Shown here: positions 1,580-6,995 of the stretch, in pieces
Layout: each line of letters opens with the position of its first letter
Position numbering within the stretch: position 1 is the first letter of the stretch
The notes under the pieces: generated by a model
Database searches by the model: none
What the model saw: the letters and a program-made list of their open reading frames with translations, nothing else
Told to the model about the DNA's origin: nothing
Position numbers and translations under genes: made by a program
From: an uncultured bacterium
GTDB lineage: Bacteria; Cyanobacteriota; Vampirovibrionia; Gastranaerophilales; Gastranaerophilaceae
NCBI GenBank assembly: GCA_949298985.1
Contig: CASFYV010000026.1
Coordinates: 124,001-188,000 of the forward strand
Reading direction: 5' to 3'
Length of the DNA: 64,000 nt

Positions 1580-3400
1580 TTACAACAACTGCAATGCTAT
1601 GCTTGGATTTTGATTTGCTGTTGCAAGCAATGTCGCACTTGCCTGCTGTAATATCTGATTCCTTATATAAGCACTGCTTTCCTCCGCAATATCAGCATCA
1701 CTTATCATAGAACGCGTTGATAATAAATTTTCTCTTTGTATACCAACCTCTTCTATAACACTCAAAAGTCTATTTTGAACAGAACCAATTTCTGTTTGAC
1801 GATTAGATAATAAAGTTAACAAACCATCGATAATAGCAATTGAATTTTCATTTTCTATACATCCATATACAGAATCTATTAATGAAATATCATTAATTCC
1901 TAACGCTACAGTAATAACAGAATTCTCGTTTGAATTTATTCCAACTTGAATACTAGTTATTTTTTCTAAAATAATACCTAATATGGAAGACACTTTACCA
2001 GTATTTTCACCTATACCTATTTCTGCAACATTCTTATTATCACCACCATTATACAAGACATTACTTATTGTGGAATTTTGCAAATTTCCAACAACGACAC
2101 CTAAATTACTACCCCCAGAAACTGAACCATAAAAAGTACAATTACTCATACTCGCATAACTATTAGACAACAAACCTAATAAACCACCAATATTTTTTCC
2201 TGTTCCACTAACATTTCCATCTACATAACAATTTAAAGTTGTATTCCAACTTACTCCTGCAATTCCTCCAACATAGTCTTTTCCATAAACATTTCCTAAC
2301 ACATAACAATTTTTAATAGTAACAGCTGACGAGCCAACTAAACCACCAACTTGTTGATTTCCAATAACTTCTACATCAGTCCAACAAGAATTAACAATCG
2401 TATACTTTAAAGTCCCGGCTAACCCTCCCAAAGAACTATAATTACTACTTGTTGATTTTAAAGTTCCTCCTTTTACGTAACAATTTTCTAAATTATTCAT
2501 TTGGGCATTTCCAACAATACCACCTACATATGTTCTACCAATTATTTCAACATTTTCCAAGCCCAAATTATACACCGGATTATGAGCTCCTCCTATTAAA
2601 GCCACATTGTCTTCATTTGGTCTATTTATATAAAGATTTTTTATAACATAACCATTGCCATTGATAGACCCTTTAAAACCTCCACTTTTTGCAATAGGCT
2701 CAAAGCCTTCGCCTATTGAATATTTAGACATATCTATATCGTTAGCTAATACGAAAGTACCACCTTTTATTTGAGAATTATTTGACATTTTAGAAAGTTT
2801 AACCAGCTCATCTGCAGATGATATCGAATAATTTCCTGAAGATATAACTGTATCATCAGCAACATCTTCTAACCTAGTCATTATACTCGTATCTACTTTA
2901 TTAATTTCATTAATAAAACCTTCTTCTTTTATATTTAACGAATCTAAATTTGCACCTGCCCCTGTTGGTATATTAGAAATTGATTCCAATAAACTCATTC
3001 CATTATATAAAGTACCTTCTTTTACCCTATACAACTCATTAATTATATTCATAGCTTCTAAATTTAATGCATTTAATGATTCTAATGAATTTGTTTTATT
3101 AACTGCATTTACAGCTATTATCCTGAGCTTTGAAGCCATTGTTTGCATTATCGAAAGAGAATCAGAAGCAGTATTAAACATATCAAGAGCTTTTAATGCA
3201 TTATCTTCTGCCACACTATAGGCATTTATTTTTGTCGATAAATTTGTTTTTATAAAATACCCTGCTGCATTATCTTTTGCGTGGTTTATCTTAAATCCCG
3301 TACTCATTCGCTCTATCGCTTGGTTTAATGATGAGGTTGAACTCTTTAAAGATGATTGAGCTATTATACTGGATAGATTTGTGTTGATTGTTAACGCCAT
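1580..3400 (-). CDS. flagellin with a GLUG-repeat central domain
   Basis: This is a flagellar filament subunit, exported by the flagellar type III system and assembled outside the cell. Residues about 1-140 match the conserved flagellin N-terminal D0/D1 helices (MALTINTNLSS start, then DNAAGYFI). Residues about 520-606 match the C-terminal helices, ending in a typical Leu-rich tail (ALQLL). The surface-exposed middle, about 270-450, is made of GLUG-type repeats (VGGIVGN, LGGLAGT, VGGLVGS, VGGIAGV, IGGLLGL), a module better known from secreted adhesins and proteases. At 606 residues it is much longer than a minimal flagellin (about 270). The start is fixed by the conserved N-terminus, although the ribosome site is weak (GTGGGGTGG). 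No other flagellar gene is in the window. Confidence 0.9.
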   Translation of the reverse strand: MALTINTNLSSIIAQSSLKSSTSSLNQAIERMSTGFKINHAKDNAAGYFIKTNLSTKINAYSVAEDNALKALDMFNTASDSLSIMQTMASKLRIIAVNAVNKTNSLESLNALNLEAMNIINELYRVKEGTLYNGMSLLESISNIPTGAGANLDSLNIKEEGFINEINKVDTSIMTRLEDVADDTVISSGNYSISSADELVKLSKMSNNSQIKGGTFVLANDIDMSKYSIGEGFEPIAKSGGFKGSINGNGYVIKNLYINRPNEDNVALIGGAHNPVYNLGLENVEIIGRTYVGGIVGNAQMNNLENCYVKGGTLKSTSSNYSSLGGLAGTLKYTIVNSCWTDVEVIGNQQVGGLVGSSAVTIKNCYVLGNVYGKDYVGGIAGVSWNTTLNCYVDGNVSGTGKNIGGLLGLLSNSYASMSNCTFYGSVSGGSNLGVVVGNLQNSTISNVLYNGGDNKNVAEIGIGENTGKVSSILGIILEKITSIQVGINSNENSVITVALGINDISLIDSVYGCIENENSIAIIDGLLTLLSNRQTEIGSVQNRLLSVIEEVGIQRENLLSTRSMISDADIAEESSAYIRNQILQQASATLLATANQNPSIALQLL

Positions 3401-3464
3401 TAAACCACCCCACTTTCTAAAAGTAAGATGATTCTCTTTTTATTATTTGAAACAGTCGGAAAGC

Positions 3465-3566
3465 CTATAAATAGAGGATTATCCCCCCCCCCGACTCACC
3501 AAAAATGCCTACCGTAAGAGGGTTTGAGATGTCAAACATCCGCATTTCTTCTTTTAGCTTCGACAT
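3465..3566 (-). CDS. short ORF crossing a G10 tract upstream of flagellin
   Basis: This 33-codon ORF begins MSKLKEEMRMFDIS, has AAAGGA about 12 nt before its ATG, and runs through the homopolymer at 3483-3492. With 10 G it stops at 3465-3467. With 11 or 8 G the reading would continue to a TAA overlapping the flagellin ATG (TAATG), giving 55 codons. It may be a phase-variable leader for the flagellin, a decayed gene or chance. I do not recognise the peptide. Confidence 0.35.
   Translation of the reverse strand: MSKLKEEMRMFDISNPLTVGIFGESGGGIILYL
3483..3492. repeat. C10/G10 homopolymer tract
   Basis: Ten consecutive C (G on the coding strand of flagellin) lie about 85 bp upstream of the flagellin start. 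Such a run is unexpected in DNA this AT-rich, and long poly-G tracts are classic slipped-strand mutation sites. Confidence 0.85.
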
Positions 3567-3684
3567 ACTAACTACATATCCTTTAGTTTAGTACACATAT
3601 CTATATACCTAGTATAACTCGTATATATAAGGTATGCAATCATTTATTACATTTTCGTTACAATTGGATATTATACAAAATTAA

Positions 3685-4044
3685 TTAACAAGAATAGCTA
3701 CATCCACCGCTGAAAGAAGAAACACTACCAGAAGAGAATGATCCAACAGATGCTGAAGCAATAGAACCACAAGATTCACCGGCTCCTACGTATGCAATAG
3801 AGCCACAAGATTCACCTGCACCTGTATAAGCAATAGAACCACTTGTTTCACAACTTTGTGCAAAATTCATAATCGCTGCATCACTTGGACCAGAATAAAA
3901 ACTGCAAGTATCAACTCCAGAATCTGTATTAGAAAAAATCAAACTTGTATTATCAGAAATCAAATGAGTTGTCTTAGGAGAAACATCTGCTCCAATGAAT
4001 TTAAAACAAGTTGAGTTATTATCATCAGTAGTTAATGTTAGCAT
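3685..4044 (-). CDS. Cys-rich Gly/Ser repeat peptide, unknown function
   Basis: This 119-residue protein has an acidic, Thr/Asn-rich N-terminal half and a C-terminal half made of 12-residue repeats (SGSIAYTGAGE, SCGSIAYVGAGE, SCGSIASASVG). It ends GGCSYSC. There are seven Cys, mostly in S-C-G or E-S-C settings, and no signal peptide. The DNA repeat unit is 36 bp (3758, 3794, 3830). I chose the ATG at 4044, which sits 7 nt after AAGGATG; an upstream in-frame ATG overlaps that site. A leader-like half followed by a repetitive Cys/Ser/Gly core recalls precursors of modified peptides, but no maturase gene is nearby. A structural or surface repeat peptide is equally possible. It carries the GCAATT/ACTT upstream element shared with five other genes. 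Confidence 0.65.
   Translation of the reverse strand: MLTLTTDDNNSTCFKFIGADVSPKTTHLISDNTSLIFSNTDSGVDTCSFYSGPSDAAIMNFAQSCETSGSIAYTGAGESCGSIAYVGAGESCGSIASASVGSFSSGSVSSFSGGCSYSC
3758..3865. repeat. 36-bp in-frame tandem repeats inside the Cys-rich peptide gene
   Basis: Units start at 3758, 3794 and 3830. The first two are close copies and the third is degenerate. Each encodes a 12-residue Gly-Ser-Ile-Ala block, so copy number could vary without breaking the frame. Confidence 0.8.
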
Positions 4045-4079
4045 CTTAATCATCCTTTTATTATTATCTACATATATAT

Positions 4080-4106
4080 AAAGTAAATAAAAATTTATGA
4101 ATTTCA
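4080..4106 (-). promoter_or_regulatory. shared GCAATT-type promoter element (GAAATT variant)
   Basis: GAAATT and TACTTTATATATA lie upstream of the Cys-rich peptide gene, with G and the A of ACTT exactly 21 nt apart. The other five copies have GCAATT, so this one carries one mismatch. Confidence 0.5.
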
Positions 4107-4201
4107 ATCAAGAAAGTTATCTTTACATTTTGTTACATTAGAATTTAATATAAGAAATATGTATATTTTTTTGATAAAATGAAGTTGAAGGGCTTATATT
4201 T

Positions 4202-6667: not shown

Positions 6668-6788
6668 TTTATTAACTCAAGCAAATTGGTCTTATACAGT
6701 CAAAGCCCATCCCGCTTGACAGATATAATTAACTATTAAGAGATTGTATGTACTTAGAGCCATAAGTCTAAATTACATTTACCCCCCC

Positions 6789-6995
6789 CTACCAGCTTGC
6801 TTTAGTAACACCAGGTAAAACACCTTGGTGAGCCATTTTTCTTAAACAAATTCTGCAAAGACCGAAATCTCTGTGAAAACCGTGAGGTCTGCCACAAATA
6901 CTGCATCTATTATGTAGTCTTACTTTTGGATATTTACCTTTAGCAGCTAATTCTTCGCGTCTTAGTTCTTTGTTTATCATCGCTTTTTTAGCCAT
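6789..6995 (-). CDS. rpsN: 30S ribosomal protein S14, zinc type
   Basis: This 68-residue S14 binds the 3' domain of 16S rRNA in the small-subunit head. It is the short zinc-binding form, with CSIC and CRIC (C-x2-C...C-x2-C) and the conserved C-terminal KASW. It is a few residues longer than the usual 61 because of an insertion in the N-terminal basic part. It is the last gene of the S10-to-S14 run; the usual next gene, S8, is missing here. A C8 run directly follows the stop codon. Confidence 0.95.

Follow-up and report, generated by a model that had tools for sequence, protein, structure and literature searches.

A guanine tract in a translated leader as a probable length-dependent switch of flagellin genes in a genus of Gastranaerophilales

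The stretch of DNA considered here (the window) comprises 64,000 nucleotides (nt) of an uncultured bacterium of the Gastranaerophilaceae, positions 124,001 to 188,000 of contig CASFYV010000026.1 in assembly GCA_949298985.1. The assembly amounts to 1.79 Mb in 31 contigs and its close relatives are Candidatus Gastranaerophilales metagenome-assembled genomes (MAGs), as is the source organism itself. Near one end of the window lies a long flagellin gene of the GLUG type, preceded by a short open reading frame (ORF), the leader, which contains a run of ten guanines. The gene and its upstream region are arranged as follows, all on the minus strand.

1580–3400 (-): GLUG-type flagellin of 606 amino acids with Flagellin_N, GLUG repeats and Flagellin_C; the gene under the leader's putative control.
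3402–3434 (-): RNA hairpin of 14–15 base pairs, GAAUCAUCUUACUUU / UAG / AAAGUGGGGUGGUUU, from predicted folds; it covers the flagellin Shine-Dalgarno sequence (SD).
3405–3411 (-): flagellin SD GGGGTGG, in the 3' arm of the hairpin; duplex energy -12.9 kcal/mol.
3465–3566 (-): leader ORF as assembled, 33 amino acids, the OFF form; its stop lies 64 nt ahead of the flagellin start.
3400–3566 (-): leader ORF in the ON form (G11 or G8), 55 amino acids at G11; by frame computation, its TAA overlaps the flagellin ATG.
3483–3492 (-): G10 homopolymer, the putative site of switching by strand slippage; n = 2 mod 3 is ON.
3579–3583 (-): leader SD AAGGA, inside AAAGGATATG, 12 nt ahead of the leader ATG; read from the sequence.
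3590–3690 (-): conserved block with promoter, upstream of the leader; from a DNA search of the organism's own genome.

Flagellin membership is clear, since both Flagellin_N and Flagellin_C exceed the Pfam cut-offs (PF00669, 6.5e-22, 78.5 bits; PF00700, 7.3e-17, 61.9 bits), with the GLUG repeats matching PF07581 at 1.4e-11. The leader begins with ATG and, as assembled, translates as MSKLKEEMRMFDISNPLTVGIFGESGGGIILYL. With G11 or G8 the leader frame runs on, at G11 as ...GGGDNPLFIGFPTVSNNKKRIILLLESGVV, until a stop codon TAA whose final A is also the first base of the flagellin ATG (TAATG), while with G12 the leader stops after 29 codons. ON lengths are therefore those of n = 2 mod 3 (8, 11), and the assembled G10 is OFF. 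This agrees with a first-pass annotation of the DNA, which had noted G10 at 3483–3492 in a 33-codon ORF upstream of the GLUG flagellin (now borne out by sequence, frame computation and Pfam) and had proposed that one added G, or the loss of two, gives a 55-codon ORF ending as TAATG on the flagellin ATG, as frame computation confirms. The ON frame of this leader is conserved in a relative (L169/L044; L numbers denote surveyed flagellin loci). Across both strands of the window G8 is matched 4 times, 3 of these inside the tract, where dinucleotide shuffles lead one to expect 0.08; the tract, beyond chance here and present as G7–G18 in relatives, is of the mononucleotide kind on which slipped-strand phase variation depends.

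The same annotation considered the flagellin's own ribosome site to be weak, which is incorrect: GGGGTGG, beginning 11 nt ahead of the flagellin ATG, is strong, its predicted duplex with the anti-SD (-12.9 kcal/mol) comparing with a median of -8.2 in classical flagellins, but it is buried in the predicted hairpin, which ends beside the start codon. The start region in the window is less accessible than in upstream shuffles (z -2.3), as is that of the relative L169 (z -2.4), in which the helix is preserved via G-U/A-U changes. Taken together, the long flagellins exceed the classical ones in SD strength, and their starts are less accessible (unpaired 0.34 and 0.32 vs 0.62).

Flagellin upstream regions were gathered from genomes of the same genus by tblastn, with a second set of genomes searched after the pattern had been seen, and tracts of G7 or longer were sought within 480 nt upstream of the flagellin start. 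In the pooled set, such tracts precede 28 of the 71 long flagellins but just 1 of the 35 classical ones, which have about 300 amino acids (p 2e-5); this sole exception, L213, is a truncated copy of a long flagellin. Leaders with G tracts, ranging from G7 to G18, precede many long flagellins in the genus, and the AAGGATATG motif is found again ahead of leader starts in relatives. No G6 or longer tract occurs upstream of any flagellin with a start found in two other families of the order, where few long flagellins were readable, and the system may accordingly be confined to this genus. A second class of long flagellins (L033, L051, L107, L161, L200), mostly with an LSLNTN-type N-terminus, is without a leader; in these the AAGGATATG motif itself forms the flagellin SD, 6 nt away.

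A frame test was applied to every upstream region with a G7 or longer tract, asking, independently of the leader start, if at least one of the three reading frames that follow the tract is open as far as the flagellin start. An open frame reaches that start at all 29 tract-bearing loci, 28 of them with exactly one, where dinucleotide shuffling predicts about 9.9 (the shuffle values multiply to a log10 of -27.6, for loci that share ancestry). The remaining two frames nearly always close early, the median distance from tract to stop being 16 nt. Sixteen loci are numbered L148 and above, and with L148, L169, L171 and L213 lying on contigs of the first batch, 12 are new; these were fetched after the pattern was seen and 12/12 pass the test, with a combined shuffle value of about 3e-10. 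At all tract loci the end of the leader stop falls between +1 and +14, counted from the flagellin start, even across 200–390 nt, so that the upstream stop overlaps or abuts the downstream start, as TAATG does in the window. The longest of these translated runways belong to L022 (391 nt), L154 (382), L031 (373), L148 (354) and L157 (347), with individual shuffle values of 0 to 0.01. A change in tract length alters a frame that reaches the flagellin start, and would be expected to alter the amount of product. As a separate observation, the leaders of L022, L148, L154, L157 and L213 comprise some 140–155 codons, and in these long leaders there are translated stretches, for example SPRPLWERAEF / SPRPLGERVEF, that resemble in-frame insertions of intergenic repeats.

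These results bear directly on the proposal that the tract is a chance homopolymer or an assembly error with no role. Tracts of G8 or longer do occur elsewhere in these genomes, often within an iterated GGGGTAAATG motif, and might be taken to favour it; the tract before flagellins, however, recurs at the same position in many species with a conserved frame, whereas most tracts before other genes lack a frame reaching the next start, and chance or error is extremely improbable. The GGGGTAAATG motif itself is found in the window at 6776–6789, where a G8 occupies 6782–6789, and genome-wide, with 38 occurrences vs 3 for a reversed control, partly in tandem arrays spaced at 13–14, 51 or 54–55 nt; G9 or longer tracts followed by TAAATA/TAAATG also recur between genes in relatives.

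Comparison of close relatives suggests that it is the frame, rather than the peptide, which is maintained. Differences in length behind the tract are all 0 mod 3 (indels of 6, 24 and 147; a net 27 in L022/L148), while the tracts themselves differ freely in comparisons with conserved flanks, made between species or paralogues (L060/L064, 12 vs 10; L014/L169, 10 vs 11; L184/L201, 15 vs 11; L113/L194, 11 vs 9). In the ON frame the substitutions show little preference for any codon position, and amino acids are poorly conserved, indicating that openness is kept and not the peptide. The conserved nucleotides directly ahead of the tract (CTCAAACCC.CTTGTAGTCATGCTTTTC) are read as SNPLVVMLF or LKPACSHAF, depending on the locus. 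In tract-less copies the leader is open to the flagellin start in 18 of 26 cases vs 5.4 expected (e.g. L024, L103, L086); L024 has non-repetitive codons in place of the tract and L103 an interrupted tract, both in the ON frame. Such a pattern in the sequences would be expected if the arrival of ribosomes at the start codon, and not a peptide, were the function of the leader.

The reading of the same conserved nucleotides in two different frames across loci could also point to a tract that acts as RNA or DNA, whether as the target of a C-rich small RNA like Helicobacter pylori RepG, as a G-quadruplex or as a spacer, with an effect graded by length and a leader frame that is incidental. Such an element predicts no open frame to the start, no restriction of indels to 0 mod 3 and no open leaders where the tract is lost, yet all three are seen, which makes it quite unlikely. 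Both RNA polymerase and ribosomes can slip on homopolymers. On that basis a single genotype might, through transcriptional or ribosomal slippage at the tract, give ON and OFF products in a fixed ratio, with no heritable switching, and a genotype fixed at an OFF length could still make some flagellin. Tract length which varies freely among relatives does not suit a fixed device of this type, and we regard it as unlikely, although both processes can co-occur.

A further possibility is polarity, in which the untranslated leader of the OFF phase lets Rho terminate transcription, such that frame matters at the transcript level. OFF-phase leaders do leave tens to nearly 390 nt untranslated, and polarity is the proposed route for the downstream genes of Bifidobacterium breve pilus clusters (PMC9187656). 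No Rho above the TIGR00767 cut-off was found in 19/19 genomes of the order Gastranaerophilales, however, the sub-threshold matches scoring 26–65 bits vs a cut-off of 509 and being mostly frames of about 440–515 amino acids that resemble paralogous ATPases; nor would polarity need leader stops clustered at +1 to +14 of the flagellin start. Without a recognisable Rho, transcriptional polarity is very improbable and coupling by arrival and reinitiation is favoured as the probable mechanism. An Rfam search at the locus returned no RNA family, and a terminator scan found none close to it, so there is no evidence for attenuation.

Within the organism's own genome, the promoter block occurs in 4 copies (C26:127590, that of the window, C9, C7 and C26:36986, where C26 and the like denote contigs) at 100, 91, 85 and 85% identity, each before a leader; the tract is G10 in the window, G8 at C9 and G10 at C7, and C26:36986 has none. 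GLUG flagellin genes likewise number 4 (window, C26:36.9k, C30 and C31). As assembled, an ON-frame leader exists only at the tract-less C26:36.9k; on direct reading, the C9 leader (G8) terminates a short way past its tract, and the C7 contig ends before its frame can be read. A 141-mer at the end of C9 (promoter and leader; L093) recurs exactly in those ends of C30 and C31 that hold the flagellin starts (L087, L085). Flagellin switching by DNA rearrangement was considered on this ground and set aside for a collapsed repeat between two leader-flagellin pairs, the simplest account because 4 promoter blocks are present for 4 GLUG flagellins; a 141-base overlap would suit an assembler maximum k-mer of 141. 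Exchange of promoters or flagellins among C9, C30 and C31 is accordingly the less simple alternative.

Between the flagellin and a TPR protein the window also holds a small ORF, 3685–4107 (-), with a C-terminus rich in Gly, Ser and Cys and containing repeats (GAGESCGSIAY...). Its 120-amino-acid form has no Pfam match, and the product could be a small secreted or modified peptide.

Collectively, slipped-strand phase variation of a translationally coupled leader, with one switch per flagellin gene, is probably what these loci encode. The switch would sit in a translated leader or "runway", outside the flagellin coding sequence. Ribosomes would load at the leader SD (AAGGATATG) and, at an ON length (here 8 or 11), reach the flagellin start, unfold the hairpin that hides its SD, terminate at TAATG and then reinitiate; with any other length, they would stop shortly past the tract, leaving the hairpin closed and little flagellin made. 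Replication slippage would alter the tract length, and with many long paralogues each having its own leader and tract, a population with a shifting mix of expressed flagellins may result. We infer that slippage proceeds in living populations, that leader and flagellin are coupled and that ON corresponds to expressed. The phase-variable leader coupled to flagellin proposed by the first-pass annotation is thus strongly supported by the comparative frame data, although it is not one site but a genus-wide arrangement. On the larger scale, a combinatorial flagellin repertoire across the genus is likely, in which most long GLUG genes have their own leader, many have a poly-G switch acting via frame-dependent coupling and some copies are locked on by tract loss.

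Several observations weigh against this interpretation. Of 20 tracts for which a leader start was assigned, only 3 have an ON length in the assemblies (L023, L064, L171), and L171 has two open frames. Assembled tract lengths can be wrong or majority values, and the variation seen is between species or paralogues. Among the long flagellins there are also some in which no leader can be recognised, and some in which the AAGGATATG motif itself serves as the SD. Shared ancestry of the loci means that the shuffle probabilities overstate independence. Sequestration of the SD as a general feature of all loci was rejected, as the occlusion of start regions outside the window's subfamily mostly does not exceed what composition would give, and hairpin opening may therefore not be a general step.

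In the gut, flagellin is an important target of both the immune system and phages, and Gastranaerophilales remain all but uncultured. The findings suggest that in this gut lineage of non-photosynthetic cyanobacterial relatives the flagellins are switched heritably and one gene at a time, with a benefit that may concern host immunity, phage or the variation of surfaces. A leader that only delivers ribosomes could be overlooked when phase variation is sought, as is standard, by scanning coding sequences, and tract lengths in MAGs are not to be taken as fixed. The arrangement gives a sharp prediction, namely that expression follows tract length mod 3 with the ON lengths known.

A literature search of partial coverage, with most subscription papers outside it, returned no flagellin phase variation in Gastranaerophilales and no phase-variable coupled leader. 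Within that coverage, the pairing of a slippery leader with a flagellin that is separate from it yet coupled, in a design repeated from gene to gene, appears to be a new combination among the systems compared, though priority is not certain. Poly-G contingency loci of Campylobacter, Helicobacter and Neisseria are alike in having a G tract of 7–18, a length mod 3 that sets the frame, a surface-exposed product and many loci per genome; their tract is typically part of the coding sequence or promoter of the gene itself, whereas here it lies in a separate leader and the controlled protein is unaltered. The sortase-pilus switch of B. breve, also a gut commensal, has a short translated ORF with a G tract near its start, the length of which decides if translation reaches the structural gene; G11/G12 mixtures were measured there, and G12 was dominant at a locus where the reference has G11 (PMC9187656). 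In that system the short ORF and pilin are fused, while here the frames differ and the leader stop lies 1–14 nt past the flagellin start, implying reinitiation. A variable G-repeat within an mRNA leader is shared with H. pylori RepG / tlpB, where control is graded through small-RNA pairing and a leader ORF is not described (PMC8295292). With Salmonella Hin and the Clostridioides difficile flagellar switch, gut bacteria likewise switch their flagella or flagellin stochastically, but by DNA inversion with one switch per system, as opposed to slippage with one per paralogue. Finally, translational coupling by stop/start overlap, known from operons and coupling clusters (PMC3711429), shares the TAATG or ATGA-type overlap and a downstream start that depends on upstream translation; ordinary coupling is usually constitutive and joins two functional proteins, whereas here the upstream peptide seems to be only a switchable runway.
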